Source: Polymyxa betae (taxonomy: Eukaryota; Endomyxa; Phytomyxea; Plasmodiophorida; Plasmodiophoridae). Taken from it: a DNA stretch of 64,000 nt. The stretch's first letter is position 1; the number at the start of each line of letters is the position of its first letter. The position numbers were made by a program, and so were the translations under genes. The notes below the pieces were generated by a model that was not told where the DNA came from, ran no database searches, and worked only from the letters and a program-made list of their open reading frames with translations. The stretch is taken from assembly GCA_003693705.1 (NCBI GenBank), contig RBZT01000771.1:43592-107591 (forward strand), given 5' to 3'. Of this stretch, positions 1,339-62,270 are shown piece after piece.

Positions 1339-1550
1339 GAGGAAGTAAAGTTACCCGGCGCAGTCAATGTAAATCATTTTCATTTTCAGTAAAATTCATT
1401 GTCGATTGTGTCTTTCCACACGACCGACGTTCGGTTGGAGGACGGAAGTTCGCGAGGCGTGGCTTCGATGCAGACGCGGGAAACCGTATTGGCCATGGCT
1501 GTGGGCGCAATTCTTCCGGCTATTAATGTTGTTCACATCTATGATTAATC

Positions 1551-2921
1551 ATGGCGAGCTCGCTGTCGACTATCTTTTGGGCCGTCCTCAGTGTCCTGCA
1601 TCTGCCCATTTTTGCAATTCCGGTCCTGTATTGGCGTAGGCGGAACCTCGATCCGATCAATGTGAGACGGCCGCGAATTCTCATCATCCCCTTGGTGACT
1701 CTTGTCATCGCCATCTGGCACATCCTGCTTCGAGCCCTGTTCCACCTATCATCGAAATCCTGGCTGAACATTATTATCCTATCTGTTCTGCTTGTGACAT
1801 CATCCGAATCGTTCTTCGTCTTTGCCTTATCGCTCTATATCGCCTACAACAAGATGAAACTGCAGATCGCTATGTATCAAGAGAGTCAGAAATCCTCGGA
1901 CATGGAAAGCTTGAAAACGTTCCTCGAATCGATCAGAATGATTTCTTGGCTGCTGAGCGAAAAATTCGCATACGCCTGGGTCGTCGGGCACGTTCTGCTA
2001 TGGACCATGATCGTCTTGATCTACATCGGAACCCGGATTGGGTTCCCGAATTGTTTAACTCCGTTGAGTGATATCTCAGAGCAAGCTGCCCATCATGTCT
2101 TAATCATGGTCTATGGACGGAGCTTGTTGACGGTCATTTGCTGGATTGTCTTGTCTTTCAAACTGCGTCTGATGCAAGATGCATTCGGCACCAAATCGTT
2201 GCTGAAAAAGACCGGCCTGATCGGCGCCACTTGTCTTTGTTATCATTTCTTTTTAGAGAAGACGGTGGCTGAAATTTCGGTGCTCCGCTTGCACGACTTA
2301 TGCACTTTAGTGCTCGTTGATGCAGCTTTTATCATTTCATTCATCATTCCGTTATTGCAGACACGCAAGATTGCGAATCGGACACCGTCCACAAGCTATT
2401 CTTCTGGCACCTCGGCAAGGCCGTCGGATTTTGAATTGTTCTTGCACACGGCTGATGGCTTTGCAGCATTCAAACGGCATTTAGAGAAGGAGTTCGCTGT
2501 CGAGAATCTGCTCTTCTGGAAAGATGTGAATTTGTTTCGTGAAAAGTGTGATGCCGACGATGCAGGCCGACTGAGCTGTAAAAGCATTATTCTGTCCTGG
2601 GCAATATTCGACAAGTATCTTTGCAGCTCGGCGCCTCTGGAAATCAACCTACCATTCCAGCTGTCAATGAAGTTCAGGAATATATTCGCGAATCGGATGG
2701 GCGGAAGCCCAGCAATTACAGCGGCGATCTTCGATGAGGCAGCGAATCAAGTCCTTCAGCTTATCGAAGTGGATTCTCTACCAAGGTTCCTGAGGACTAA
2801 CCCACCATCTTGGAATCAGTTCAGGGCTCTATGCGAAGAGAGGATGGTCGCCAATCAGGTCGATGAACTCGGCAAGGCGCGAATATCTCGCGAACGTACA
2901 AGCGACAGTTGCGATTGCTAG
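1551..2921 (+). CDS. Seven-transmembrane protein with C-terminal RGS domain (paralogue 1)
   Basis: The 456-residue product is read from a single intronless frame. About seven hydrophobic segments occupy residues 8-275 (for example TIFWAVLSVLHLPIFAIPVL near the N-terminus), followed by an RGS domain at about 295-440. The RGS domain shows the usual signature FELFL...GFAAFKRHLEKEF..ENLLFWKDV and the terminal helices FDEAANQVLQLIEVDSLPRFL. Known 7TM-RGS proteins (plant AtRGS1, fungal GprK type) sit in the plasma membrane and speed GTP hydrolysis by G-alpha. That role is inferred here. Three paralogues lie at 44.4-53.2 kb on the other strand, all intronless, whereas nearly every other gene in the window is intron-rich. 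Start: the first ATG of the frame, with hydrophobic sequence beginning right after it. Confidence 0.9.
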   Translation: MASSLSTIFWAVLSVLHLPIFAIPVLYWRRRNLDPINVRRPRILIIPLVTLVIAIWHILLRALFHLSSKSWLNIIILSVLLVTSSESFFVFALSLYIAYNKMKLQIAMYQESQKSSDMESLKTFLESIRMISWLLSEKFAYAWVVGHVLLWTMIVLIYIGTRIGFPNCLTPLSDISEQAAHHVLIMVYGRSLLTVICWIVLSFKLRLMQDAFGTKSLLKKTGLIGATCLCYHFFLEKTVAEISVLRLHDLCTLVLVDAAFIISFIIPLLQTRKIANRTPSTSYSSGTSARPSDFELFLHTADGFAAFKRHLEKEFAVENLLFWKDVNLFREKCDADDAGRLSCKSIILSWAIFDKYLCSSAPLEINLPFQLSMKFRNIFANRMGGSPAITAAIFDEAANQVLQLIEVDSLPRFLRTNPPSWNQFRALCEERMVANQVDELGKARISRERTSDSCDC

Positions 2922-13966: not shown

Positions 13967-14413
13967 TTATGCAGCAGCTTGAGGCGTTTCCGTTTCGGTT
14001 GGTGGCTCTGGTTGGGCGGACTCCCAGGGCTTCCAATCGGCCATAGTTGGAATCAGGTTAAGCTCAGCCTCGGCCTGCTCGATGAGTTCCTCAACCTGGC
14101 CATCATTGATTAAGGCCTCGATCTTGTTGCAATCGTCGTTCTCCTGGACGACCTTCAGGCGGAAGTTCGAGATCTGCTCGACGCCTTGCCGATATTGGGC
14201 GCTCTCAGGGATAACCTAAACCTATCGGATTCATTCCAATGATATTGAAGCGGCAGGGTTTAAGCCGCCGACCTTGATCTCTTCCAGGGTTTTGGCGTAC
14301 AGACCGAGCAGCACCTCACGAGCATTGGCGACAACGGGGACGCCTTTCAACCCAGTGGTTGATTTGATATTGGCGGAGAATGGCCGAATCACGGCCCGAC
14401 TAAGACGAAGCAT
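13967..14413 (-). CDS. NDUFA5: NADH:ubiquinone oxidoreductase subunit A5 (complex I B13)
   Basis: Two exons (14413-14273 and 14215-13967; 57-nt intron) give 129 residues. Matching landmarks are STTGLKGVPVVANAREVLL..LYAKTLEEI, then VEQISNFRLKVVQEN and VEELIEQAEAELNLIPTM followed by WKPWE, the LYR-associated helical subunit pattern of B13. It is an accessory subunit of the matrix arm of mitochondrial complex I. It ends 52 bp from the convergent RhoGAP gene. With NDUFB3 at 28.7 kb it shows the organism keeps a complete respiratory complex I. Confidence 0.9.
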
Positions 14414-14669: not shown

Positions 14670-17600
14670 TTATGTAGCGATGGCGGACTCATCGAGGTTG
14701 TTGTTGTTGTTGTTGCTGGTATCGACATTGGAGCTGTCGTTGGATTGGAACAGAGCGGCGGCCAGCTCCATCTTCTGGGCCTGGTTCAGATCCGGTCGTT
14801 GCAGAATCTGCACAAGACGCGCCTTCATGTGCGGCTGCTTTTGAACCAGTTGTCTGAGCAAGAACATATTGCCCTGGTCGATCTCACCGTTAACCTGGTC
14901 GAGATCGTGGCTGCTATTAGAGACCGCTATAGCAGGCGGGATGCTTTCAGGAGGTGCCATCATAACAGGCGACATCGCTAATGGAACTGAGGCAGCTCGC
15001 ATCAATGGTGTTGTTACTGTTGGAGGCATCTTCGTCCCGCGAACTGATGGCGATGTGATTTGTTGTGGTGGCGCCATCGCCGACATCTTCTTGGATTCGT
15101 GCGTTCGATCACGAAGAGCACGAAGCTCGACAATTTGCCTAGGACTTAGAGTCGATCCAATATTCGCATGCGGAATCATCAGCCCTGAACACATTTTAAG
15201 TTTCAGCAATGTCAAACGAAAAAAAGCTGCCACGTTTGTGTCCGGCGGTGAGGGCAGCTGCATGAGAAGCATGTGATCGCATCAGTGCCTCCTTGAAAGC
15301 TTCTGCCGGGATGCCACTAAGCGGCGTTCTTAAAGCTAATTTACATTGGATATGGTTTTGCATGATGACTGAGGCTGATTTAGAATTCTGTTAGTTTGGC
15401 CACTGAACGACACTTACTTCGAACGGCGCCGGAGATGACTTCGAATGACTTCTCAGCAGTGGCTTTGTTTCGGATCTGGCTACGATATCTGAGCCATTCC
15501 AAAGCCGATCGGTAAGCCATCTGCGGGTCGGCATTCGGCAGCGGAGGGACTGAAACAAGACGTTGGACGAATTCAAGCGACCAGAAAAACCCACGAACCT
15601 GGAGTGCCAGGATTGCTGATGGCTTGAAGTTTCTCCCAAAGACGCGGCCCGATTTCCTTGGCCTTTCGAACAAGGAGCGAGAAGCGGTCCGAACACATTT
15701 TCGGCGTCCTGAGCCGTCCACGAACAACCAGATCGGATTCTGCAATCGCAGTTAGCAACTAGAATGGAAACTTGAGCGAGGCAACCGACCCAGAAAGTTG
15801 GACGCTATCTGGAAATTGGGCCCGAATAGAATCGCCGAACAGACAATGAGCGCATCCTGGCAGATGATCAATACGAAGGCGAAATAGTGATCGAAAGGAG
15901 GGAAACCTCTTCGTCGCTGAACGGAACTGGATGCGACATGGCGATCGGTTTCGGAAGAGCGCTTGGCGCCATTGATACAACAGGTTCATCAGCACGAGGC
16001 CGCTTGATTGCAGGACCTTCGGTGGGAACTTCGTCGCTCTTGCGTTTGGTTGGGACAAGCTGCTTTTTCGCGATTCGAATGCGCATCGTTCCGCTGACGT
16101 CGTCCACGATGATGGTGGCAAGACGAGGCCCACGACGCCGTAGTTTCTTCTTCTTCTTTCGTGGCAGCCCTGTTCGAGTACGGAACATCTGCGCCTGAGA
16201 TTCGGCGGAGGCGAACAAACCCCATCTATAGGGATCATTCGGATCGTCTTCTGATTGCAAAGGCGTCGCAAACATCTCCGACTACAGACGTCAGCGATAG
16301 ATACAGAGCCCATTGATAAACGTACTGCTGAGAGAGGCGCAGGTGGGCACTTCACAATCGGGTCATACACGAGCTTGTGACGAAGGGCGAAATTGCGAAG
16401 CTGTGCCTCCATGGGCATCAGCTTTGATCTCCTGTAGAAAAGAGCCGGTTGTGACGAGGTCGAAATGAGACTTCCGGCGGCGATTACGACTCCATGCGGC
16501 AAGACGTCGTTTTGCTGATTGATGATAAGGAATTCATAGAGGCGAACATCGCTGAATCTTACATCAGCAGGCGGCTTGTATTTGCTTCGAATTGTAGACA
16601 GAGCCAACTTTGTATCATGCGGAAGTGGATTCGGAAACGACGCCTGTGTCCTGGGAGCCGTCTCCCCAATCGCATTCGAAAGCGACAGTATCCTAACCGG
16701 ATCCACGATGATGGATGGCGCATCCGGCAAAATCTCCGATGGATTCCTCTTCAATGCCCAGAGCTGAACCCATATTAGAGCCATACAGAGAAGGAGAATA
16801 TCAACGGTGTACTTCGAATGGTCTTAAGAGATAGGACAAACCCGTCCCGATCTGAGGGATGGACTGGGTTAAAGCATCCGAATCACCCTCGATCTGGGAT
16901 CTGAATCTTCTCCATATCTATACGACTTGTTATCGAATGACAGATAGACGCGCCCAAAAACCATACACTTAAAGCGACCGTGTCGATGGGGGTTTCCGCA
17001 CGAGTGATGATGGCTTCGGCTTCGTTCTGATTCTAGAATTGACAATGAATAGATAACTTTGAGAGATGGAATGGCGTACAGATTCGATTGCAGAAGCCTC
17101 CGAGAAAGGACCGAACAGGAGCTGGTCGAAGTCCATCTGAGAGAAGGCCACCTGGGTCGACGTTAGCAAAGAACACTCAAACCAAAGCCAAGCTCGACTA
17201 CATTGGCAAATCGGTAGGCGTATTCGTCAAAGGTATCTTTGACGATGAAGCGAGATAGCTGAAAATCGCCAAGACGGGCAGATCGCGAAAGACATTGCTC
17301 CATCTAAGACGCAATTAGGGCCATATTAGTGGACAGAGCTAATGCACACCAGTTGTCGTGAGGTCGGGTTCCAGTCGTGTTCGAACACAATTACGGATGA
17401 GAACAGCGACAAGCTCGGATACGAAAACACCGACATCGTTCTAGAGGATGTTAAGTAGATGAAAGGCGCCTGTTCCGACACATAGTCCAATGCGAATCGC
17501 CCGATGGATGGATTGGTTGGAATCGGAAGTTCGCGAATCTACAGTGAATTTAGCGAAAGGAAGAGAGCAATAGGTCGACATACATAGCGGAAACGATGAC

Positions 17601-20425
17601 GTCCCAGAAAGCGTTGGATGACATCCAGAGTCTGACAGCTACAAGCTATAATGACAATACGAGCCGAGGGCCTATATTGCTCTCGTAACATGTCGTATAA
17701 AGCCCGAAGTTTGCCCGAGTCGCCAACCAGAAAACGAGGCTCGCCAATATCCAGATATCCGTCCTAAGGAACAATCAGAAAAGCAAAAAGTGAAATCCAA
17801 AAAATGAAATGCAAATCTCATAATGACGAAACTGAAGAAAAAGGAAATGTACTTTGTGATCGGAGTGCAAATCAAGCGAAGAGATTCGAGCAATAGCAGC
17901 TGGAACAAAAACATTTCTGGAAAGCTGAATCGATGGTGAATCGCGATAGGTGTCAACCACAGTTGAGTCGAGATCGGCAATGAGCCCTGGCAAAGCGACA
18001 GAGAGCCACCTCGGGAACGTCACCGATTGATGATGCGGATCGAGCGCGGATTCCAGACAACATCGAAGTGCATTGGCGGACCTCGAAAACTTCGCACCAT
18101 CCAGTCTTCTGGGCAGAAGGCGCTCAATAAAACATTGCATGAGCTGCCTAGAAACAGCACGGAGCGGGTCCCTTTGAACGAATAGACGTTGCGCATAAGC
18201 CGGACCAATCTCGAAAAGAATGCTATGCCTGGAATACACGGGTCTGAACAAATCAGGATGCGTACAGATCTGATGCATTCATCAGAAACCAAAATCAATG
18301 TGGTTCAATTAAAGTACAGAATGCAATCGGGTAACAGCGCGAACGAGATCTGGCAGAGTGGTGAGAGATTCAACAGGAGCGACTTCGTCATAGAGAAGCG
18401 ATTGCCTTTCAGACAAGCTGAGCGGAATGACATATTCATTCAGGCAGGGCAGCTGTCCTTGAACTAAAAAGATTCAGCAAGATTTAACAAACGGGAAACT
18501 GGTTACCATCGGTGAGAGTCCTGCGTAAACAAAACGCATTCAGAAAGTCGTGACCGAGAATGCCTTCACAGCGCAATGGTTTCTGATTGCCCAATGATTC
18601 CTAAAACAATATTGAGTGATGTTTGAGGTTGAAGCTTGAGGGCGAACATATAGTTGGGAGAGATCGCGGAACGTCCTGGGAGCAATGAAGTTCAGCAACG
18701 ACAACTGACTCCTTTGCAGATCGGTCTGCAGTGACGCCAAATGACGGAACAGCAGAATCCGAACGCATGCATTGAGCTTGGTTAAGCTCGACCAGCGAGC
18801 GGATGTGAAATCAATCGCGGAATCTTCGGGAGAATCAATGGCGATGCATTTCCACGACTGCGACATGAGATGGACATCATCAAGTGGCATCTCGAACGAT
18901 GTTATAACAACAGAGTTCGGAGGCAGCTCCGACGGCCATGACTCCCTGGAGCTGTTTTAAGCATTGCTAGCAAAACACAAACAATGAAACGGCACCTATT
19001 TGTATAAACGAAAGCGTTCGAGTTCGGATATCGGCATTTGAGTTCAGAGTCCCATCGTAGCAGATTCAAAGGCGTTGTGATGACCAAATGGGGTGCGGAT
19101 TCTAACGACATCCACGCCATCACCGATATGCGCTTACCCAGACCTAGAATCTGTCAGAACATGAAACGATGCGTTCCATGGAACGTCAACCTTGATCATC
19201 AGCAATGATGAAACTCGCAGGAGAGATCAGAGTGCTAACGGCCTCCAGCCAGGCAACGCATTGCCTTTGGTGTTGGTGCAAAGACGTGTTGCTTAGAGGG
19301 TCGCCGAAATCTGCAATCGGTTCGCCGAACCTTAAGCGAACCATGGCGTCGCGTTGAGCCACGAGCTGATTCAAATAGGGTTCCCGCCATTCTAACAAGC
19401 ACCGCCATCAGTCGATATCAGAAGACTCAGCCTGATAATAACCTTCATCCAGACCGCTAACAGATTTCTGCGACAGCATGCTGCAGGAACGGAAATATTC
19501 CTGACAAAGGTCAAAACACGAACAAATCTTGATAGGCAGCGATTCTCACATTGATCGGGTTGGTATCGATGGCGAGGTCGTTGTAAATGCCCCTCGCATA
19601 TTGATCAGATCGTTGTACGACCAGATCGAGCGGCGCCCGATTGCGCTGCATACTCTGCAGTCGGCGGATGGTGGACCAGAACTCGGAGATCATCTGGGAC
19701 GCTCTTCTGGCTTGCGTCCACCTCTGAATCTCCACGACTCGTTCGTTCATGCGGACCGCCTTCTCCTTGCGCTCCAGTAACGATTTCGTCTGTTTGGCGA
19801 CCGACAGCGCCAACGTCCGTTTCCACGTATCTTCGTGCATGAAATCGGCCGCCATCCAGCGCATCTCCTCAAGAACGCAATCCCAATTCGTTCGAAGACG
19901 AGGCGGTTCTTTCTGCGGCGGGAGGCGTTTGCCAGCGCGTTGCTGGAACTGAACGATCTTCTCCTGAATGGCAGCGCGTTCCTTCACCAATTCGTTCAGA
20001 TCAGCACGCTGGGTTCCCTTCAAGTAAAGCTGCTGCAATCTTGAATAAACAAAATCGGGTTTCTTGGCCGCAGAAGGCGCCTTGGACGTGTCTGCGTTCT
20101 TGGCAATCGCACCGTTTGGGCCCTCAGCATTATTCGCATCAGTTTCATCTGGTGTAATACCAGCCGCTGTTCCCTCTTCTGTCGACTGGGCAGCAGCTTC
20201 GCCCATCTCGGCAAGAAGCAGAGTCAACTCCTGGTTTAATAGCCCGCGCCTTCACAAACGTATTAAATCTACCGGAAAAACAAAAACGAAATTGAAAAAC
20301 CTGGTACGAAGCTTAGCGAGGGCATTTCGAAGTTGAGCGGCAATAGCAATCCGACTGCGATCGCTTCCAAAGTCGATCCCAACCAAACGACTTGTCACAT
20401 CGACGGCAAGTCTACCCGGCTCCAT
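14670..20425 (-). CDS. EP400/Eaf1-type HSA-SNF2-SANT protein with degenerate ATPase motifs
   Basis: Multi-exon gene starting MEPGRLAVDV at 20425. Order: HSA domain (around 19.83-19.90 kb, WDCVLEEMRWMAADF), SNF2 N-lobe (QHQRQCVAWLEAV onward), C-lobe, basic linker, SANT-like domain (about 15.6-15.9 kb, RGRLRTPKMCSDRF) and a Gln/Asn-rich tail (ARLVQILQRPDLNQAQKM). The layout and the phrase ICTHPDLFRPVYSRHS match the EP400/Domino family and, without the motor, fungal Eaf1/Vid21, scaffold of the NuA4 histone acetyltransferase. The motor is damaged: Walker A reads DDQGLGKR instead of DEMGLGKT, motif II DSPED instead of DEGH/DEAH, motif III LFRHLASLQ instead of LTGTPLQN, and motif VI lacks the arginine pattern. 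It is therefore probably a scaffold without ATPase activity. Several exon borders in 15.3-18.5 kb are approximate. Confidence 0.85.
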
Positions 20426-20966: not shown

Positions 20967-21119
20967 TTTCTGCTCGAGCCACGGGCGACCCATGGCGAAA
21001 CTCGTCTCAAATATAAAGAAGAGTTCTTCATGATTTGAAAAATGCCGTTCACAATGAAGGCGCAGCCACTTTCAAATTCATTTTGATTTCAGTATCAATA
21101 ACGCGGCCCTGATTCGGTC

Positions 21120-22370
21120 ATGTCGTCGCCCTCGTCAGCGCCAATGGCCGTCGATCTAACCGTTGAGCCCAAAGTTCAATCGTCGAGGCCAGCTTTACCG
21201 CCTGGATCCATGGAGCAACCTTGGCTGGAGAAATATCGCCCAATGGTTCTGGATGATGTTGTCGGCAATGAACCCACTATCAAACGGTTAAAGGTTTGTT
21301 GGCGGTCGGCGGTTACCTTGGTCTGTTTACAAGATGATTTAGGTCATTGCTGGCGATGGAAACCTGCCGAATATTATTATCGCTGGGCCGCCAGGTACAG
21401 GAAAAACAACCAGCATTATGTGTCTAGCTCGACAATTGCTTGGCGATGCGATGAAGAACGCTGTCCTGGAATTGAATGCTTCAGATGAACGGTATAAGCT
21501 GGTAGCTATCAAACAGTATCGCGTTAATCCTACTTTAGAGGTATTGACGTTGTTCGGAATTCGATCAAACAGTTCGCACAGCAACGTGTCGCTGGTCTGC
21601 CACCGAATCGTCATAAAATCATCATTCTTGATGAAGCGGATAGCATGACCGTCGGTGCTCAGCAGGCTCTGAGGCGGACCATGGAAATCTACTCGGATAC
21701 TACACGATTTGCATTAGCATGTAATATTTCCAGTAAAATCATCGAACCCATCCAGAGTCTGAAAATTATTCTGCTAAATTTAAAAAATTAATCAAGTTTA
21801 GGTCGATGCGCAATCGTTAGGTTTAACCGTTTGTCTGATGAAGAGATATTGGCGCGATTGCTTTCTGTTCTTGAAACGGAAGGCATAACAACGTTCACGA
21901 ACGATGGTCTCGAGGCCATTCTTTTTACAGCTGAAGGAGATATGCGAAACGCAATCAACAATTTGCAATCGACTTATGCTGGCTTCGGCTTGATCAACGC
22001 CGACAATGTTTTCAAGGTCTGCGATCAACCTCATCCAAAGGTGTTGCAGTACCTGCTATCTCAGTGCCAGCAAGCAGCAATTCGGCAAGCGCTGGCTGCA
22101 TTTCAAGGTGACGATCAGTTCGGAATCCCTTGAGTGCGTTTTAAACAATGAATAGGTCTGTGGTTGCAAGGGTACTCAGCCATTGATATCGTTTCGACTC
22201 TGTTTCGAGTATGTAAAACTGCCGATATGGAACCATCGCTTAAGCTTAATTTTATTCGAGAAATCGGATTCGTGCATCTACGAATTGCCAATGGCCTCGA
22301 CACAAATCTGCAGCTTTGTGGACTCATTTCGAAGCTATGCCTGCTTGCTGCTGGCAAGTCTTTTGACTAA
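21120..22370 (+). CDS. RFC2: Replication factor C subunit (human RFC2 / yeast Rfc4)
   Basis: Five exons (21120-21293, 21343-21491, 21539-21756, 21802-22107, 22156-22370; introns 45-49 nt) join in frame to 353 residues, the usual size. Motifs seen: Walker [11 protein letters not shown], Walker [10 protein letters not shown], the arginine-finger region ending EPIQSRCAIVRF, and the subunit-specific phrases [21 protein letters not shown] and [16 protein letters not shown]. This is a small AAA+ subunit of the clamp loader that places PCNA on primed DNA in the nucleus. All catalytic residues look intact. Confidence 0.96.
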
Positions 22371-44399: not shown

Positions 44400-45797
44400 T
44401 CAGTGCATAGAACGGTAGGTTTCGAATTCGTTAGATTCGTGCCAACTCAGTGGCGCTTTTACCAATTTATCGACTTGATGAGCCACCATGGATTCTTCGT
44501 TCAATGCCAAGAACTGCCTCCATGCTGGTGGGTCGGTGTTCAGGAAGCGTTTTAATGAATCCACTTCCATTAGGAATAGAATCTGTTTCGCTGATTTATC
44601 GAAAATCGACGCTGTAATGGCGGAATTGTCGCCAGAACGATCGACAAAAATCTCCTCTCTGAATTTGATCAAATGCTCGCTTGGTAAGTTTACTTCCAGA
44701 GGCGCCGATTTTGAGAGATACTTGTCAAATATCTTCCATTCTAGATTGATGCTGTGATCACTTCGATAGCCCGATGGAAATGAATCGCAACATTCCCGAA
44801 ATAAAGTCACATCTTTCCAGAAGAGCAGATTCTCCAGAGAGAACTCTTTCTCTAAATGCGATTTGAACGCCTCGAACCCTTCCTCTGTCAGGAGAAATGA
44901 CTCGAAATTCGACCTCGTCGGATTGCAATCTTGAACTTCGCAACCAATAACAGCTCGAAGACGGGTGTCTCCTCGCGCCCGATATAAAGGGACGATGAAG
45001 GCAATAGCAAAAGCTGTATCTGCAAGTAATATCGTGATTACATCATTTAGGGCTAGATTTGATAATGCTAATATTCTTTGATCCAGAACTATTAGATAGA
45101 TTACACTGACAATAGCTATGAAGCCACATTTTTTCAGCAACGCCTTCGTCCCAAATGCATCTTGGACTAAACGCAATCGCCACGATAAAACAAACAGCCA
45201 GAAAGCGGTGAACAGGCATCGGCAGAAGATGAACATCGCGGCCTGATCTCCAGCACTTAATGCGTTTTCGTCCAATTGGCTCCAAGAAGTCATCAAATTA
45301 GCAAAGCCAACCTGGTACCACAAATAACTCAGGACGACTGTTGTCCATAACAAGGTATTTCCAATAATCCAGGTGTAGGCGAACTGTTCGCTTAACAGAA
45401 AAGAAGACAGATGGATGGATCTGATGGTCTTGTTAATCCTTTCAGTATCCGTTGAATCGCGAACCGCTTGGTACAGATTCAGTTGTTCCTTGGTCTTATT
45501 ATATGCAATGTATAAGGTTAAAGCGAAGACGAAGAACGCCTCGCATACATAACTCAAGAAAAAACATATAATTATAAGGTCAAGAGCGCAATAGGAAGGA
45601 ACTCCGAGTAGATTACGAATCAAAATGTACCATATGCTTGTATAAAGGGACAGAAGCGCTGCGATAAAGATTCGCGGGCGTCTCACCTTGATTGGATCCT
45701 GGTGTCTTTTCCGCCAATAAAGCCAAGGAACAGGAAGAATGGGTAAATGAAGCACATTGATGACCGCCCAGAAGACAGTCCGTGACAAATTAACCAT
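44400..45797 (-). CDS. Seven-transmembrane protein with C-terminal RGS domain (paralogue 2)
   Basis: Intronless, 465 residues, complete. The N-terminal membrane part starts VNLSRTVFWAVINVLHLPIL. The loop after TM3 reads FALTLYIAYNKTKEQLNLYQ. The RGS domain is at about 305-450 (NFESFLLTEEGFEAFKSHLE, ENLLFWKDVTLF, WKIFDKYLSKSAPLEVNLPS, VDSLKRFLNTDPPAWRQF). It is more similar to the frameshifted paralogue 3 next to it than to paralogue 1, including in upstream noncoding sequence, so the two arose by tandem duplication. Likely a membrane-bound regulator of G-alpha signalling. Confidence 0.92.
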   Translation of the reverse strand: MVNLSRTVFWAVINVLHLPILPVPWLYWRKRHQDPIKVRRPRIFIAALLSLYTSIWYILIRNLLGVPSYCALDLIIICFFLSYVCEAFFVFALTLYIAYNKTKEQLNLYQAVRDSTDTERINKTIRSIHLSSFLLSEQFAYTWIIGNTLLWTTVVLSYLWYQVGFANLMTSWSQLDENALSAGDQAAMFIFCRCLFTAFWLFVLSWRLRLVQDAFGTKALLKKCGFIAIVSVIYLIVLDQRILALSNLALNDVITILLADTAFAIAFIVPLYRARGDTRLRAVIGCEVQDCNPTRSNFESFLLTEEGFEAFKSHLEKEFSLENLLFWKDVTLFRECCDSFPSGYRSDHSINLEWKIFDKYLSKSAPLEVNLPSEHLIKFREEIFVDRSGDNSAITASIFDKSAKQILFLMEVDSLKRFLNTDPPAWRQFLALNEESMVAHQVDKLVKAPLSWHESNEFETYRSMH

Positions 45798-46285
45798 GGC
45801 TGGACATCAAGCAGCAAGGCCAAAATCGCAGCGTGGATTGTCGATCATAGATATTCTGAAAGGTTCAGTCCCTGATTGCAGGTACCGTCTATCCTGATTT
45901 CCAGCTTGTATCAGCCCTCAACGTTCTATCAAAGGAGCAATAATTAGCTATGTACTAGTACAGAGCTCACCATAATTGCAGCCTAATACCGTATTGAGTT
46001 CTCCGTTCGCCTTTTCAATCACCGTATAGGAAGCGATCGTATGACGAATCCGATCCATCCAAGGACGGATACCGAACACGTTTTAGTCGAATGAGCTGGC
46101 ATCGGTCAATGCCTGGCTGCAACAAGTCCTTCCAGCGGCATTGACCTTGATGGCCAGCGTCCATACATTAACGGAAGCGAATCTAGCAATTTTGGCCTTT
46201 CAAAATGCTCAAGTGCTAACAATACAGTCTTATTGTTTTAATCATTGAGCCTCTATTTGGCCCTGATTGTAGTTGGTTCAATTAT
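45798..46285. other. Upstream region of paralogue 2, duplicated with that of paralogue 3
   Basis: No intact gene. Scattered similarity (for example CAATACCGT at about 45988 and a GACGAATCC stretch near 46039) to the region upstream of the paralogue 3 gene (about 47960-48170) shows that the duplication included about 250 bp of 5' flank. Confidence 0.5.
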
Positions 46286-46514: not shown

Positions 46515-47907
46515 TTATGGTTTACGATCGATGTTTGGAAGGACAGGTTTCGAGTTCAGAAAATTCACCAATCTATCGACGTGATTCGCGACCATCGTCT
46601 CTTCGTGCATGGCCAGAAACTGCCTCCATGTTGGTGGATCCGTTTTCAGGAATCTCTTCAGTGAGTTGATTTCCATTAACAACAGAATTTGATTCACGGA
46701 TTCATCAAAGATCGTTGCTGTAATGGTCGAGTTGTCGCCGGAACGATTCACGAAGATCTCGTTCCTGAATATGATCAACTGCTCGCTTGGTAAGTTTACT
46801 TCCAGAGGCGCCGATTTTGAGAGATATTTATCGAAGATCTTCCATGCTAGATCGATACTTGGAATACCTCGATTGCCTGCTGAATTCAAATCGCAACACT
46901 CCCGAAATATTGTCACATCTTTCCAGAACAGCAAATTCTCCACAGAGAACTCTCTCTCTAGATGCGACTTGAACGCCTCAAACCCGTCTTCTGTCAAAAG
47001 AAATGACTCGAAACTTGATCGTCTCAGCTTGCAATCATGAACTTCCCAACCGATTACAGTTCGGAGACGGGCGCTGGCGCTCCTTCGCGCCCGAAATGCG
47101 GGAATGGCGAATGCCATAGTAAAAGCTGTGTCCATAAGTGATAGCGTAAACACATCGTTTAGGCGAAGATCTGACAATCCCAGGATCATCTTGTCCAGAA
47201 ATAACAGAAAGCAGAGACAAGCAACGCCAATGCAGCCACATTTCTTCAGCAACGCTTTCGTCCCGAATGCATCCTGGACCAAACGCAATCTCCATGAAAC
47301 AAAAGCCAGGCCCAATACGGTAACAAGGCCACGGCTGAAGATCAGCATCGCCAGCTGCTCAACAGTTCTTGCTGTGTTTTCATCCATCTGATTCAATGGA
47401 GTCAACCACAGAGAAAACTCAATCGTGATCCCGATGTAAAGCGCGACGATTATCGTCCATAACAACGTATGCCCAATAATCCAGGTGTAGGCGAATCTTT
47501 CGCTTAATAGGACAGTACAACCTGATGGATCTGATATTTTTCTCAATGCTGTCAGTATCATCTGATTTGCGAATGGCCTGGTACAGAACCATTTGTTCTT
47601 TGGTCTTATCATACGCGATATACAGAGCGAGAGCAAAGATGAACCACGCCTCACATACAGAAATCATCAAAGGACATAGTATTAGAATGTCGAGCAAACA
47701 GTAAGAGGACATTCCGAATAGATTACGAAGCAGAATGTGCAGAAAGTTCGCAAGCAGGGTCAAAAGCGCTGGCATGAAGATTCGCGGGCGTCTCACCTTG
47801 ATCGGACCATGGTTTCTCTTCTGCCAATAAACCCATGGAACAGAAAGCAGCGGTAGATGAAGCATACCGATGATCGCCCAGAAGATGGTCAACGACAAAT
47901 CGGTCAT
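46515..47907 (-). pseudogene. 7TM-RGS paralogue 3, broken by a frameshift
   Basis: The frame starts at 47907 (TDLSLTIFWAIIGMLHLPLL) and runs to ENIRSIRL-like sequence near 47517. The rest (LLSERFAYTWIIGHTLLW onward, with complete RGS domain to 46515) is in another frame. The total length of 1393 nt is two short of a multiple of three, and paralogues have one more codon exactly there (HLSSFLLSE), so a 2-bp deletion at about 47512-47520 explains it. No splice signals fit. It is either a young pseudogene or a sequencing error. Everything else, including RGS residues ENLLFWKDVTIF, is intact. Confidence 0.85.
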
Positions 47908-48548: not shown

Positions 48549-51053
48549 TCAGATGAAGTACATCTGGGAAGCAGTACGGGCCCTAACAGTGGGAATGGCA
48601 CCGAAAGTAGGCGACGCTTCAGAGATAGAGCCAGACATGGCTTCTAATTCATCAGCCTTGGAATGATAGCGGGCACGGAAAGCAGCGAGATGAGCATAGT
48701 AAGCGGCCGGTACAAGTGAAACCGAACGGGTACAGCGGGCGTACAAGTAGCACATTCGGTTGGTGAGATCTTGCAGGAAGTCGGCGGTGAAGTTATTCTC
48801 GTCGAATATACAATGATAGTGAGTTGGTCGCGAAGTTCCCTGAATTCCACCATGAGCTACCAGGTAGAAATCGAATTGACGGGGATGAACGACGTTAGTA
48901 TCGACCACAGTGCCAGCCGGGACGTTACCAGAGCGATCAGCTTCACGAGAAGAAGCGCCGTTGACAAAAAATCGAGCATGATGACGCTTTTGAACAATGA
49001 CGAAGGTGATCTTTGGCGAGTAATTGGCCTCCAGTTCACTGCAAGCGGTTCGAAGGGCGTTCAATTCGTGTTTGAGGACATATTCGAACTGGCCTTCCGA
49101 AACACCATCTCGATAGAACAGAATTCGTTCAGGTTTCTTGCCCTTGGTAGATATGTGAAAGCGTTTCAACAGGTTCATGGCCATGGACTTCAAGTCTTCA
49201 ATAATTTCTTGACGACTTCTTTGAACCCGGGTCTCGACCTCATAACGGAATGGAAAAGCATCCATTGAAGCCACCACAGCCGCAAGAGATGGCAATTTCG
49301 AAAATGGCGCAGCGTGTGATACATCGGCACCAAAAACAATGGCAGGTTTGGAGAACAGGAAATCGGACGATGGAGACGGGCTCAGAATATTGTTAACGCC
49401 ACCAGTACGAGCGTTAATTTTGAGAAGCAGGTTACGGGCGTACATCGGATTGGCTCTCTGCATATTCTTCGACTGCATACATTGAGATGGAACATCAAGA
49501 ACGGTGTCACAGACGCGTTTGATTTCTCCATAAGCCGATGGATCACCAAATGGTAAGATGATCAGCAGAAGCTGAGGCTGGCCCTTCGTTGTCTGTTGAA
49601 CTTGCTGGATAGCACGCATGATAATCTCGCGATAATCAGGTGCAGAGCGACGTTGAGGGCGATGAGGAATCAGGACGGGTCGCTGGAAGGCGACACCATG
49701 CTCTTTGCCGGCACCATTCAAAACCTTAAGAAAATTCATAACCTCTTGCTCACGAGCACGGGTTTCTATAACCAAACAGCCCCAATGGTTGATTGGGTTC
49801 GAGACATACATCTGGGCATCGCGTGGCTGCAAGACGCCCACGTTCGGCTTAACAGCCTTGTTACGAGAGGTCGGCTTGTAAGTGATGGTTGGAGGTTCGA
49901 GAACACGGCCATCGATATGCAGAAGCTGCTGGTTGACGCGAATGCCGAAGTCCTTCAAAGCAGGATCGCGATCGTAGAATCGCTCGTTGATAGCGTTCTG
50001 GACGTGCTGCAGACGGACCGTTAGATTCGTAGCTGTTTTCTTGATCATGGAGGCGGTTTGAGCCGGAGCCAGTTTGTTGATACGTTCTCCTCCTAGGACA
50101 TTGCAGACCTCTATAGGAAGGTATGTTGGTTTCTGCTTAGAGCCAACCACCAATAAGGGCAGGTTCGGATACCGCAGGCGGACCTGATAACGCTCTAGAA
50201 AGTATTCGGCAACATTAGTTCGGCGAGCACCGTCGTCAACATCAAAATGGGCTTGGAGAGCGTTCTCTTTGGCGATATCGCGAATGATGTAGCGGCGCTT
50301 GAATTCATTACGGTGGGTGACGAAGACCTTGACACCAACCAATTCAGCACGTAAGGCACCACGATTGACATCGAGGATCTGGCCCAGGGGATTCTTCGTC
50401 ACACTGGCAACCAATTCCATGACAGGCTGCGGCTTGCGAAAACAGGAAGCGGCAATATCGAGGTTCACCAACAGGCGACCATGCGCAGGACGAAGCGATT
50501 GATGGTAGCCGAACCAGATTTCAGCTCCAGCATCAAGAGGAACAGTGTTCTTGCCGGAGAAAAAGGATGACCCAATAGTGGTGCAGGTGGCAATCGGTGT
50601 CGTACGAAGGACGACGTCCAAGGCTTGGATCGCATCCTGTGGAATGTCGATATCTTGACCGTCCAAGAAGGCAAGGAGTGTGGACATGCTGACAACGGCA
50701 ACATGCTCGATTTTGACAGTGAACTTATCACGACGATCGGGAAGCTCAACAATCTCGACACGGCTGCTCCATGACATACGCTTAGGATAGTAAAGCGACG
50801 CTTCACCGTCATAAGCTGGGGTCAGGTTGCCTTCGAATAGATCGTGACTGCTGCTGCGAAGGTGGACTATAATCATACGATTGATGGGTTTTGGAACGTT
50901 CGGCGTGATCTGAACATTATACATGTGCAGGTCGGCAGACGGGACGACTGGGATTTCGAAAAAGTTCGTGACAAGTTGGATGCGACGGCCGCGAGTGCCT
51001 GCACCAGGGCGTTTTGGCATGAAGGCAGGGTTAGATATCACGAGTTCAGTCAT
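48549..51053 (-). CDS. AGO: Argonaute, catalytically complete
   Basis: Intronless, 834 residues, usual length. N domain, linker, PAZ (RLRYPNLPLLVVGSKQKPTY, EVCNVLGGERINKL), MID, and PIWI. The slicer tetrad is all present: D in VFGADVSHAAP, the glutamate-finger E in QRSRQEIIEDL, D in LFYRDGVSEGQFEYVL, and H in GTSRPTHYHCIFDEN. The end ARTASQMYFI is typical. It binds small RNAs and cleaves complementary transcripts, so RNA interference probably operates in this organism. It lies between RGS paralogues 3 and 4 on the same strand. A fossil copy occupies the next RGS-RGS gap. The absence of introns contrasts with the rest of the window. Confidence 0.96.
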   Translation of the reverse strand: MTELVISNPAFMPKRPGAGTRGRRIQLVTNFFEIPVVPSADLHMYNVQITPNVPKPINRMIIVHLRSSSHDLFEGNLTPAYDGEASLYYPKRMSWSSRVEIVELPDRRDKFTVKIEHVAVVSMSTLLAFLDGQDIDIPQDAIQALDVVLRTTPIATCTTIGSSFFSGKNTVPLDAGAEIWFGYHQSLRPAHGRLLVNLDIAASCFRKPQPVMELVASVTKNPLGQILDVNRGALRAELVGVKVFVTHRNEFKRRYIIRDIAKENALQAHFDVDDGARRTNVAEYFLERYQVRLRYPNLPLLVVGSKQKPTYLPIEVCNVLGGERINKLAPAQTASMIKKTATNLTVRLQHVQNAINERFYDRDPALKDFGIRVNQQLLHIDGRVLEPPTITYKPTSRNKAVKPNVGVLQPRDAQMYVSNPINHWGCLVIETRAREQEVMNFLKVLNGAGKEHGVAFQRPVLIPHRPQRRSAPDYREIIMRAIQQVQQTTKGQPQLLLIILPFGDPSAYGEIKRVCDTVLDVPSQCMQSKNMQRANPMYARNLLLKINARTGGVNNILSPSPSSDFLFSKPAIVFGADVSHAAPFSKLPSLAAVVASMDAFPFRYEVETRVQRSRQEIIEDLKSMAMNLLKRFHISTKGKKPERILFYRDGVSEGQFEYVLKHELNALRTACSELEANYSPKITFVIVQKRHHARFFVNGASSREADRSGNVPAGTVVDTNVVHPRQFDFYLVAHGGIQGTSRPTHYHCIFDENNFTADFLQDLTNRMCYLYARCTRSVSLVPAAYYAHLAAFRARYHSKADELEAMSGSISEASPTFGAIPTVRARTASQMYFI

Positions 51054-51771: not shown

Positions 51772-53193
51772 TTATTTAGATGCTGTAGAGGTAAGCTGAT
51801 GTATTGAGATATGGACGTCATCTTGCGCTTCTGAATCCGGTCGTTTTGTCCTAATTTTCGCGAACGTATCGACATTGTGCACAACCCTTTTCTCTTCACA
51901 TAACGCCTTGAAATGCTGCCACGATGGGTGATTCGTCCGAAGAAACCGCCCTAACGAATTGGTTTCCATCAACAGTAATATTTGAGCTGCGGACTCGTCG
52001 AACATGGTAGCCGTGATCATTGTATTCTCGCCTGACCGGTCCTTGAAGATGTCCCGGAAATGCTTCGATAGCTCGCTTGGTAGGTTGACTTCCAGAGGTG
52101 ACGAACTGGAAAGATACTTGTCAAAGATCTTCCAGGCCAGGCCGACGATTTCAGTGTTTGGACTGGCTCCGTCAGCAGTCCCGCATCCGGCGCGAAATGA
52201 GGTCACGTCTTTCCAGAATAGGAGATTCTCGACAGAGAACTCCCTCTCTAAATGTGCTTTGAATGCCTCAAATCCCTCCTCTGTAAGAAGGAATTCCTCA
52301 AAATCCGATTTCTGCCCGTTTCCACCTGCGTCGTTGCCTTCAATCACAGTTTGCAGACGGGCTCGCTTTCGTGTCTGGAACAGCGGCATGACAAAAGCAA
52401 TTATAAAGGCGCTATCAATAAGCAAGAGAGTGCAAAAGTCTTGCAGATTCAAGGTTGACAAGGCAGCGATTCGTTTTTCCAGCAACATATTGCAGCATAA
52501 GGTGATGATGCCGATTAAACCGATCTTTTTCAGCAACTTCTTGGTGCCGAAAGCATCTTGGACTAATCGTAATCGCCAGGACAGAACGAACAGCCAGAAA
52601 ACCGTGATCAGGCCTCGTCCATAGATAAGAACGAGCGCCATCTGTCCTGCTTGTGCTGTGTTCTCATCGATTTCGCTGAGAGGTGTCAAGACATCTGTGA
52701 CACTGATTTGGCTGTAGAAATAAAGAATGACGACTGGTGGCCAGATCACAGTCTGGACAATCACCCAGGTATAGGCGAACTTCTCACTCAATAGGAACGA
52801 GAACATTTGCATCGATCTGATGAACTTATTGGCGCTTTCGACATCTGTCGAATTTTGGATCGCTTGATAGATCATCATTTGCTCTTTGGTCTTGTTGTAT
52901 GCGATATATAACGATAGAGCAAAAACAAAGAACGACTCGCATACTGGATTGATGAGGGCGCTTGAAATTACAATGTCCAAATATGAGCTTGCCGATAATC
53001 CAAACAGATTTCGAAGCAATACGTGCCAAATATTGACCCATAGAGCTATCAATGGAATCATGAAGATTCTTGGCCTTCTCACATTGATGGGATCGCGATC
53101 CCTGTTCTGCCAATACAGGAATGGGACAGCAAGCAAAGGCAGATGAAGCACGTTTGCAACAGCCCAAATAGCAATCGCGGACGAATTTGCCAT
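51772..53193 (-). CDS. Seven-transmembrane protein with C-terminal RGS domain (paralogue 4)
   Basis: Intronless, 473 residues, intact. Same layout as paralogues 1-3: ANSSAIAIWAVANVLHLPLL at the start, VRRPRIFMIPLIALWVNIWH, the FALSLYIAYNKTKEQ loop, WRLRLVQDAFGTKKLLKKIG before TM6, and RGS domain at about 300-445 (DFEEFLLTEEGFEAFKAHLE, ENLLFWKDVTSF, SPLEVNLPSEL, TNSLGRFLRTNHPSW). Strongly conserved blocks are the cytosolic helix VQDAFGTK and the RGS core; the extramembrane loops vary. Likely a receptor-like GAP for G-alpha. Confidence 0.92.
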   Translation of the reverse strand: MANSSAIAIWAVANVLHLPLLAVPFLYWQNRDRDPINVRRPRIFMIPLIALWVNIWHVLLRNLFGLSASSYLDIVISSALINPVCESFFVFALSLYIAYNKTKEQMMIYQAIQNSTDVESANKFIRSMQMFSFLLSEKFAYTWVIVQTVIWPPVVILYFYSQISVTDVLTPLSEIDENTAQAGQMALVLIYGRGLITVFWLFVLSWRLRLVQDAFGTKKLLKKIGLIGIITLCCNMLLEKRIAALSTLNLQDFCTLLLIDSAFIIAFVMPLFQTRKRARLQTVIEGNDAGGNGQKSDFEEFLLTEEGFEAFKAHLEREFSVENLLFWKDVTSFRAGCGTADGASPNTEIVGLAWKIFDKYLSSSSPLEVNLPSELSKHFRDIFKDRSGENTMITATMFDESAAQILLLMETNSLGRFLRTNHPSWQHFKALCEEKRVVHNVDTFAKIRTKRPDSEAQDDVHISIHQLTSTASK

Positions 53194-53907
53194 CAGACTG
53201 CCGAGAGAGTAAAATGAAAACCAAGACGGTTACGATATGAGAATTTAAGATATTTAATCAATATCTTGTAAAAATCGCCCTGGAGAGCTTTCTCTACCGT
53301 GAGACAATCAGGAAAAGCGATCTTATCATTTACTCTCCGACAACAATAAGATTGTCATATCGAAGAGCAAGAATCGGCATCCATTACGGCAGGATGTATA
53401 ACACTTGACTGCAAACGACAGCACGGTTCCTGATGTCCGGAACGGGACTTCAATCTTGGCGATTAACGCCAGACAGTAATTGCGGGATTGGTCCCATCTT
53501 CTTGACGAGCTCGACATAGCTCCAGATGACTAGCCTAGCAATTGAAATGTTCCTTGTTTAACGAGAGAGACAGATGAATTTGTCTTAGACTAATAAGAAT
53601 CATTATAATGATGTTTCAGTTTGATATGTCTCTGCATCGTCTATAGCAATATGAACCGTTAGTAAACCCTATCCCATCTAATCCAAAATTGAGAAAGTAC
53701 TCTGAGAAACTCAGAAGGAATGTTCGAAGTCAGAGGACGGATGACACGCAAGCAAAAGATAATCGGCAATGGCGCAATAAAAAGTGCGTCGTCTAAGTTC
53801 GGGTTGCGGGGACTCTCTCTCTCCTCCCGGGTAAAGCGGCATTCTGAACACACTGTCGTCTGACAAAACCTTCGGCTGTGATCGTCTGACATTAGGCATC
53901 AAGCCAG
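53194..53907. other. Divergent intergenic region paralogue 4 / HYOU1
   Basis: 714 bp between divergent start codons. No gene or repeat recognised. Confidence 0.5.
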
Positions 53908-59384: not shown

Positions 59385-62270
59385 ATGTCGTCATTCAGTC
59401 ATGTCCAGATAGCCTACTTTAGGCGCCTTTATGATACATACCGGTCTAAGAGTGCCGGCATAAATCATAACGATTTAGTGCTGATATTGGTAGAGTCCCT
59501 AGTAGGGTGTGTGTCGTCGGTCGCCATGCTGAAACTGGATCCAGAGGCATCTTGGACCAGATATCCCGCTGGCCGTCGCCAAGCTCAAGATTCGTGATTA
59601 CTCCAAGAGCGGCGACTTCATCAAATTCGATGATTTCTGTCGCCTGCTGGCTGCTTACCAGAATGAGCTTCCGGATCTTCAGATGGAGTTCGTCAAGGCA
59701 TTGCAGTATTTCTTGAAGGTAAGGTTTCGTGGGTCGCTGTTCGAGTTTCTCTCACATACTAGGCAGAAAAGGACGAAAGCCATGACCTTTGGTATCACCG
59801 AAGGGAATGGACTGAATCGCAACGATCTGATTAATATTCTGTTATCTGGTAGTCAGCCTCTTTCCATCACCGAAGCCAATGCTGTCTGTGCCAGCTGCTA
59901 CTGCAAAACTAATGCTGAGTTTGGGCGCTAATAGGCGGTCGATGACATCCTTGCTGGCCACACCACAATATCCACGAAACGGATTCTGAAGAAGATTAAC
60001 CACAATGGGGCGTTATGGGCGTCGATCTCGTATGATCATAAATATATCTGTATTTGTTTAAGCCCACAGAGCATCAAAGATCTGATTCCAATGTGCAGCC
60101 TATCCTCCAAAGATTATGCTGAAAATCTGCCTGACTGAAATCAGCGATCTGTCCATGCTTCGAAGAGTCAAATTCCGGCCTGGGCAAGGCATCGCTTTCA
60201 ATGCCTTAGATCCGTTCATTCGCATTCGATTCTGCAATTCTGTTTTAACAACCACAGTGAGATTTAACCTACTTTCTGCGTTTCGATTTAGTTTATAACT
60301 TTCGAAAAGATACGACAAGCTGAATCGGGGAACTTTTGGCCTCGGACGTTAATGCTGCCGATACAGATTCCCTCTGTGTCCCTGGATTATATTCAATCGA
60401 AGGTACCGGTTTGATAATTCGCTATTCGCTTGCCGACCTTTTTAGATTGGGTTTCGCAACTCGGTGATAATCGATCTGATGGACAGCCAGCGTACTAGTC
60501 GCAGCTCGGTCTATGCAGAATGGATTGGATCCGGACGGCTGCGATTAACTACAGTTATGAGGCAGTCTATTGGTGTAGTGCCATACGAGGTTCTGCTTAG
60601 AAAGTTCCGATCCCTTAAATGACAGCTGTTCTCAGGTGTCGTTCGATTGTCAGAATTCCAGCTCCAATTTAAGGCTTCGCTTAACGATCGAGCTGATTGG
60701 TCTGATATGGACATCTAGGTAACCCGGTCTAAAATCGTGTTCAGGTCCCTCGTTAGGATCGATATTCGATTCTATAGACGACCTGATTCTAACCAACCAT
60801 TATGTGAAATTGGCCAAAGACGTCAATCCAGCTCCTGCTAAACCACTAGCTGGTATTTGGATAAACTCGCTTTGTGCTCTGATAAGCTGATAAAAGGAAT
60901 AGGAAAGAGAGAAGTTACTTTACCGGGATCTATCAAAACTGCAACAATTGCGACCAAAGACGGCCATTCTAAAAATCTGCTTGATCGCGTTATCCAGATT
61001 TACGAGCGGGTCGAGGCTCAGGTCCCCCGACGCAACGTTCGCCTATTCGGGCGTGACTACAACGATAATTTCGCCCTGATTGTCCAGTTCGTGACCAAAT
61101 GCCAAATACCACCGTCGTATCAGAATCCTCAAAAACTTGCCGAGTCGTTCTGTTTTCTCAAAGGAAATCCAGCACATTCGTGTGAACCCGAAAATACCGA
61201 ACTCGTAACCGATACTGAGGTTCCTTAAATTCAGGTCCTTAACTGACACCAGGACGCCGATATCGTTCTACCCCCCGATTTCTTCATTCGTCGTGGATTC
61301 GTCTCCATGCTGGACCGAAGTTTATTCCTTTGTGGGCTATTCAATGCATGTGGATTAAATGCATATGTTGTGACTGGAAATGATGGCCTATATGAATGTG
61401 TTTGGGTAATCGATATTGACCAAAATGGCACAGTTCGACATTGGTAGAATCTAATTCTATGAAGCATCAGGCTGTGTAATGATATTGATTGTAGGGATAC
61501 GCTAACCGGTAAATACAGCTACAGCAGCTCCTATGTTCCTGGAGCGGTCTGGAACAGCCGACAGTTCTATTTCAATGTCTGCTCGGATGATCGTCCAGAT
61601 TTGGACTGGAATCTCTCCGACATGTCGTCATGGAAGCCGTTACTGCTAGAAACCGATGTATTACCATCACGATACCGATATAACTTAGTATGACTCCCCT
61701 CCATATGTTGTAGTGATCCTTTTCAATACAAGTTGCAGGTCATGACGCCAATGCAATTGTCGAATGATTCGACTTCCACGAACTTGATTGTGAGCGGTTC
61801 TGTGGGCGATACTTCAGTTTGTATTCAATTTGTTGCAGGTTGCAGGAATCCAGTCGTACCGTCAGGCCCGCCTGGGCTTAACAACTCCATTCTACTGGCC
61901 GATTTGCGAAGCGTTTCATTCGTTGTTGAGCTCTACCGATCTGACTACCGTCATGACCAACCGATATCTTCAAGATTATGCTCGACAGCACTTGTTTCCA
62001 AACACGCTGTCATCGTTTCGCCAAATTGTCTTTAAGTATACGGGATCTTAGACAATACTTTTAGACAACTGAAAAATGTGTAGATGTTGCCCTGAAAACA
62101 TCATAGTTCAAGAGCTGATTTGGATGGGTCTACTGGACTGTACAGCTCCTGATACAGTATTTGGTATTGGAGTTAATACCAGATCACATGGTCTAGGCCT
62201 AACAACAACCAACGTCATCATTGGATATATCATCAACCTGAATTCCATATTATTAAATTCAATAGAATAG
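59385..62270 (+). CDS. CEP76: CEP76-type centriolar protein (C2 plus transglutaminase-like domain)
   Basis: Multi-exon. The C-terminal half matches CEP76: VSMLDRSLFLCGLFNACGLN then AYVVTGNDGLYECVWVIDID, FYFNVCSDDRPDLDWNLSDM with SSWKPLL, and YRQARLGLTTPFYWPICEAF (CEP76 has HRKDLGLTTVWEDQL). A C2-like segment precedes (LRRVKFRPGQGIAFNALDPF then IRIRFCNSV, about 60150-60250). The 5' part (59385-60020) encodes EF-hand-like helices (INHNDLVLIL, GDFIKFDDFCRLLAAYQ, GLNRNDLINILLSG) and could be the N-terminus or a separate small gene. One exon phase there is not resolved. CEP76 restrains centriole duplication and occurs in organisms with centrioles, so its presence argues for a flagellate life stage. 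The catalytic His of true transglutaminases is not conserved. Confidence 0.7.

Follow-up and report, generated by a model that had tools for sequence, protein, structure and literature searches.

Yeast Eaf1 has no remodelling activity. It is without a SNF2 domain, an absence that passages of PMC7239659 also imply. The same passages describe how Eaf1 tolerates the ATPase of Drosophila DOM when this is placed between its HSA and SANT domains, and how DOM-A acts as an ATP-independent acetyltransferase complex; for EP400, parts of PMC11995519 describe the binding of TRRAP by the SANT and HD. The present report concerns a gene of this kind, hereafter the EP400-like gene, from Polymyxa betae, which parasitises plant roots and belongs to a lineage remote from both animals and fungi. 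It lies on the minus strand at positions 14670..20425 of a stretch of 64,000 nucleotides (GenBank assembly GCA_003693705.1, contig RBZT01000771.1, positions 43,592 to 107,591 of the forward strand), and this whole stretch is called the window below; all features of the gene are on the same strand, with coordinates counted along the window. The gene has an open structure of 23 exons, and its product combines an HSA domain with a SNF2 fold, five motifs of which have degenerate catalytic residues. Our reading, with a probability of about 0.58, is that the protein is a plasmodiophorid pseudo-ATPase which serves as a NuA4 scaffold in an organism from which the SWR1/H2A.Z pathway has gone.

Degenerate catalytic motifs

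Aligned with SRCAP, the motor of the EP400-like protein is degenerate at five motifs. Walker A reads ADDQGLGKR (residues 358-366; 19130..19203, split by intron 4 at 19190-19144), where SRCAP has ADEMGLGKT; motif II reads IDSPED (residues 449-454; 18822..18839), where SRCAP has LDEAQ; the motif III region, LLFRHLASLQ (residues 477-486; 18726..18755), is without the TGTP of the SRCAP sequence LLTGTPLQ; motif V is SSRTMSVFSY (residues 820-829; 17419..17448) for STRSGGVGVN; and motif VI is MEQCLSRSARLGD (residues 853-865; 17265..17303) for QDRCHRIGQTRD. In other words, the Walker A threonine, the motif II glutamate, TGTP, the core of motif V, and the first arginine and the GQ of motif VI are altered together. 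As an internal control, the INO80 gene of the same genome retains GKT, DEAQ, TGTP, a normal motif V and RIGQ.

An earlier note on this DNA, made from the letters alone, had listed changes in Walker A (GKR), motif II (DSPED), motif III and motif VI, each of which reappears in the alignment, and motif V is a fifth beyond that list. Its comparison of motif II with 'DEGH' was off, SRCAP having DEAQ and yeast SWR1 DEAH. It had also allowed that alternative splicing might bring back GKT and DEAH. When all three frames on the strand of the gene were scanned for motifs I, II, III and VI, leaving out motif V and strings created across splice junctions, no GK-S/T, DE-x-H/Q, S/T-GTP or RIGQ was found, and alternative splicing is therefore unlikely to restore these motifs.

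Gene model and domain architecture

The gene model has 23 exons and 22 introns and encodes 1555 residues, with the ATG at 20425 and the stop codon (TAA) ending at 14670, precisely the span that had been assigned to the gene beforehand. Junctions were chosen by hand as GT-AG, by reading frame and similarity, so that the GT-AG ends of all 22 introns are a matter of selection; some junctions (exons 7-8 and 12-15) may be shifted by a few residues, and the motif-bearing stretches are independent of these. The lengths of the introns, the uniformity of which was not imposed by the choice of junctions, are 43-51 nucleotides in 21 of the 22 and 89 nucleotides in the other. The coding sequence of 4668 nucleotides is stop-free, the guanine-plus-cytosine (GC) content is 52.2% in exons versus 41.1% in introns, and among three frames compared the codon score is highest in the reading frame for 17 of the 23 exons.

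The HSA domain (residues 155-218; 19721..19912) sits before the motor and matches the PF07529 profile with an E-value of 1.5e-7. It is the sole match above cut-off in a whole-genome HSA search, which at E-values up to 1 returned only one other, which falls below threshold and lies immediately upstream of INO80; the search was not exhaustive, in that the HSA of a BRM-like gene went undetected. The SNF2 fold is still present, as the note had maintained: the N-lobe (residues 335-595, exons 4-9; 18255..19272) is seen both in the SRCAP alignment and by PF00176 (E-value 3.6e-11), and the C-lobe (residues 739-886, exons 10-12; 17202..17736) aligns with SRCAP and SWR1. No C-lobe match was obtained with the Helicase_C profile, the best match there being HDA2-3 at a sub-threshold E-value of 0.021. 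Indeed, a Pfam scan of the whole protein gave the HSA domain and the SNF2 N-lobe above cut-offs and no other domain.

Behind the motor, a SANT domain is probable (residues about 1235-1290, exons 17-19; 15654..15921). Its PF00249 match is below cut-off (E-value 0.013; 16 bits versus 24.4), and its pairwise score was reached by 5 of 500 shuffles against moth Domino and by 49 of 500 against human EP400. A possible EP400-type TRRAP-binding segment after the SANT (residues 1392-1411; 15105..15164) is only suggestive, the score of its weak alignment being reached in 28 of 500 shuffles for EP400 and in 225 of 500 for Domino. A PDB search with the C-terminal 206 residues gave no match.

Family placement

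In PDB searches the best relatives of the protein are SRCAP (2e-33), SWR1 (5.5e-24), EP400 (8e-22), INO80 (7.3e-16) and ISWI-type proteins (from 4.8e-14), with SRCAP matching the HSA region as well. Identity over the motor is 32.8% to moth Domino, 32.2% to SRCAP, 27.3% to the INO80 of the same genome and 26.3% to human EP400. Maximum-likelihood trees place the protein within the SWR1/SRCAP/EP400 group, and support for separating it from INO80 and the remaining SNF2 proteins is 71% with the N-lobe alone and 94, 88 and 95% in three two-lobe runs. When human EP400 is added, it pairs with the EP400-like protein at 78%, a pairing which long branches alone could produce. The input to these trees was 16 of the 42 matches of a whole-protein search and nine own-genome loci; nine rows (four own loci, one of them swapped for a hand-joined INO80, and five proteins) were removed as redundant, too short in coverage or affected by intron artefacts, and the trees hold 23 rows, or 24 in the run with human EP400.

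The 42 matches, from 7991 candidates scored, all have identities of 30% or below, and the three relatives inspected (P0001, P0005 and P0006) have intact motors. A protein search with the HSA region found no match among 298 candidates. On sequence comparison the gene, from a plasmodiophorid, is best placed in the EP400/SWR1 family, within the SWR1/SRCAP/EP400 group. As to the kind of protein, an EP400/Eaf1-like one with a dead SNF2 motor, the earlier note was right.

SWR1 and H2A.Z in the genome

The assembly comprises 24.4 Mb in 541 contigs. A genome search with PF00176 gave at least 46 matches on 18 contigs, across all of which 21 SNF2 loci were inspected, that on contig C188 as full translations and the rest as SRCAP-aligned pieces, some of them short (e.g. 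on C137). The separate active SWR1 whose presence had been raised as a possibility did not appear: no active SWR1/SRCAP was found in the inspected pieces of the 21 loci, in none of which does the SRCAP-type signature DEAQNIKN occur, and INO80 was found intact. Two candidates were rejected, namely the C188 locus, which has segments of 59-62% identity and reads as a BRM/SNF2 gene, and the C345 locus, which is INO80 by PDB search (9e-95 versus 2.5e-65 for SRCAP). Names of loci other than C345 (BRM, ISWI, CHD, CSB, RAD54 and so on) follow our own reading. At an E-value of 0.001 the PF00176 profile overlooked the EP400-like gene, which a SRCAP query did detect (1e-4); another copy, if very diverged, could thus escape notice, but an active SWR1 should not.

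H2A.Z is the histone variant ordinarily installed by motors of this kind. A human H2A.Z query of the genome returned one match, 60% identical, which reads as canonical H2A; in a PDB search with this protein, the best 60 of 200 rows were named H2A, H2A.X, H2A.J or plant H2A types, and none H2A.Z. Moreover, H2A.Z is absent from all 18 histone-fold matches that were read, from which H4 is likewise missing, so the search has gaps. By our own reading these 18 comprise H3 or H3-like proteins, a single H2B, a single H2A and another five resembling NF-Y-type or other histone-fold proteins. One of the H3 relatives (C19:100503-100859, plus strand) is diverged, differs in its N-terminal tail and is possibly a centromeric H3. 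Further, H3-like fragments with two internal stops (C381:58497-58815, minus strand) lie near an intact H3-like gene (60132-60512), and perhaps represent a damaged copy or else a variant that contains an intron.

The actin family gave 14 matches on eight contigs, including two conventional actins and, by our own reading, ARP2, ARP3, ARP4, ARP1-like, ARP5 and ARP8. PDB searches back the ARP1-like protein (C458) and ARP5 (C316), and for the ARP4 fragment the scores are 113.9 bits against ACTL6A and 114.4 against actin. The contig of the EP400-like gene also carries this ARP4-like gene (C167:13880-15659, minus strand; own reading). Nothing resembling ARP6 was seen among the PF00022 matches, the sole basis of this judgement, and the C458 protein was rejected as a candidate for it, with ARP1 and then actin as its best PDB matches. 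A genome search for YL1 gave no match, in the lack of a positive control (the control genomes were prokaryotic and silent). In sum, four of four items linked to SWR1 and H2A.Z, i.e. the active ATPase, H2A.Z, ARP6 and YL1, were not found. This joint absence is the more surprising part of the picture and, more than any other, calls for a second genome.

The alternative that survives best, unlikely as we consider it, is that of a dead Eaf1-type paralogue beside which an active SWR1 and H2A.Z do exist, either outside the assembly or missed by the searches. For comparison with the present assembly, PMC6328671 gives Polymyxa betae an assembled size of 27.1 Mb and an estimated one of 29.4 Mb, and the PF00176 search did overlook the EP400-like gene itself. 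Against this, the active ATPase, H2A.Z, ARP6 and YL1 are missing together, whereas INO80, ARP5, MYST and Tra1 were found, as were ARP4 and ARP8 by our own reading; the argument is limited by the uncontrolled YL1 search and by the judgement of ARP6 from PF00022 matches alone. COX1, sought as a taxonomic marker, was not found in the assembly.

Possible residual activity and gene integrity

Some catalytic residues persist in the motor: in the SRCAP alignment the lysine of Walker A and the leading aspartate in motif II are conserved, as is the second of the motif VI arginines provided that a single inserted residue is accepted. It could be argued from these residues that the motor still hydrolyses ATP using unusual motifs. 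Drosophila SUUR, according to passages of PMC9917439, was predicted to be inactive and turned out to be a strong ATPase. Moreover, human EP400 (PDB 8qr1_A and 9cae_A) has non-canonical motifs III (LLIDSPLHN), V (THSRTTGINL) and VI (QEWCDRIGRCKD) with Walker A and motif II intact, yet parts of PMC11995519 describe exchange of H2A.Z by the TIP60 complex. In the EP400-like protein, however, five motifs have changed together while INO80 of the same genome keeps them, such that continued hydrolysis seems improbable. Least probable of all is a decaying pseudogene, for which speak the very long tree branch (2.4-3.1 substitutions per site) and the want of any close relative in protein searches, but against which stand the 4668 stop-free nucleotides over 23 exons (a property partly built in, as the junctions were picked to hold frame), the short and even introns and the contrast in GC between exons and introns.

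Candidate NuA4 partners and proposed role

Exons of a MYST acetyltransferase are found at C166:17096-17787 (three matches in one place). Tra1-ring matches number 11, on C409 and C364, and are much stronger on C409. This one small genome contains two Tra1/TRRAP-like genes (C409:6240-12696, minus strand, and C364:15239-21230, plus strand). Fission yeast has separate Tra1-type genes for NuA4 and SAGA, and by analogy the two genes here may possibly be one for each complex.

The reading that we prefer is that the one EP400/SWR1-family protein to be found in this plasmodiophorid has been retained as a scaffold with a pseudo-ATPase. The HSA domain would bind actin, ARP4 and DMAP1, the two SNF2 lobes would persist as a folded platform without ATP hydrolysis, and the SANT, together with the segment behind it, would hold Tra1/TRRAP. 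In this way the protein could work as an ATP-independent NuA4 by which the MYST acetyltransferase reaches chromatin. The exchange pathway of SWR1 and H2A.Z would, as the absences suggest, have been lost, and its loss would have removed the need for a motor.

Several points weigh against this proposal. The identity to human EP400 is only 26.3% over the motor, and protein searches found no close relative. Approximately unbiased (AU) tests favour the SWR1/SRCAP/EP400 group yet fail to reject a position beside INO80 (p 0.08, 0.14 and 0.20) or beside other SNF2 proteins (p 0.115, 0.22 and 0.33); hence, as to whether the gene belongs instead to another SNF2 family, a doubt which the earlier note had raised, the trees give SWR1/SRCAP/EP400 as best placement and leave those others unrejected. 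The SANT and the post-SANT segment are both weak, and the acetyltransferase exons are assigned to the MYST family as a whole. EPL1, a NuA4 subunit, and YL1, which is common to TIP60 and SRCAP, were not found in genome searches that had no positive control, that for EPL1 having likewise a silent control. Finally, the assembly may be incomplete, which weakens every absence.

The earlier note had placed the gene among early fungi, as an intermediate on the path to Eaf1. This is not borne out: the host is a plasmodiophorid (Rhizaria), and an early-fungal origin is rejected by taxonomy and by an Argonaute in the window with relatives in Plasmodiophora brassicae, at 73 and 70%. Among the matches listed in the open-licence literature, no report of a dead EP400 motor or of the H2A.Z status of plasmodiophorids was recognised.

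Neighbouring genes

The Argonaute gene is complete and in a single exon (window 48552-51053, minus strand). The two Plasmodiophora brassicae proteins are its nearest named relatives, and two closer matches, at 86 and 75%, are metagenome proteins without an organism name. The GC content of the window is 47.5%; part of PMC6328671 gives 45.1% for Polymyxa betae, 45.7% for Spongospora subterranea and 58.5% for P. brassicae. The EP400-like gene is flanked by a gene for an NDUFA5-like complex I subunit (13970-14215, minus strand; PF04716, E-value 3.2e-13) and by an RFC-like clamp loader gene (21102-22133, plus strand), the latter named by our own reading, the sole Pfam match of one piece of it being sub-threshold. 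Four RGS-domain proteins (E-values 3e-13 to 2e-16) are encoded at 1545-2918 (plus strand) and at 44403-45806, 46518-47663 and 51775-53229 (minus strand), with the RGS domain behind apparent transmembrane stretches (own reading); three of the genes lie within 9 kb, and the four form a local family.

Comparison with known systems

SWR1 and SRCAP are the best sequence matches to the EP400-like motor, SRCAP also in the HSA region. The differences from them are the degenerate motifs, the probable SANT and the partner H2A.Z, which was not found in the genome; where an active SWR1/SRCAP is expected to have canonical motifs and H2A.Z, Walker A reads GKR, motif II reads DSPE, and the one H2A found is canonical, in an assembly of unestablished completeness. 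INO80 is a separate gene, on C345, and the EP400-like protein scores higher to SRCAP than to INO80, with the INO80 placement unrejected by AU tests. Drosophila SUUR is likewise a SNF2-like protein long held to be inactive; according to passages of PMC9917439 it proved to be an active ATPase, with its Walker A lysine as the residue mutated in the control, and hence it stands as a warning.

Similar in organisation are human EP400 and Drosophila DOM-A, which, from passages of PMC7239659 and PMC11995519, have an order of HSA, SNF2 lobes with a long insertion, and SANT that the EP400-like protein shares if its probable SANT is counted. Human EP400 is like the EP400-like protein in its non-canonical motifs III, V and VI, and unlike it in its intact Walker A and motif II. 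Yeast Eaf1, the platform of NuA4, is a scaffold of HSA and SANT in passages of PMC7239659; the EP400-like protein resembles it in the HSA and the probable SANT, but keeps about 555 residues of SNF2 where fungal Eaf1 has none. The best reading is of a parallel to fungal Eaf1 and not of its ancestor. A wider and more tentative claim, which we hold somewhat more doubtful than even, is that the whole plasmodiophorid lineage lost SWR1/H2A.Z exchange, its single EP400/SWR1 gene now being a pseudo-ATPase that serves only as a NuA4 scaffold. If this is true, nature would here have separated the role of scaffold from that of motor, and would have done so without any connection to the route taken by fungal Eaf1.

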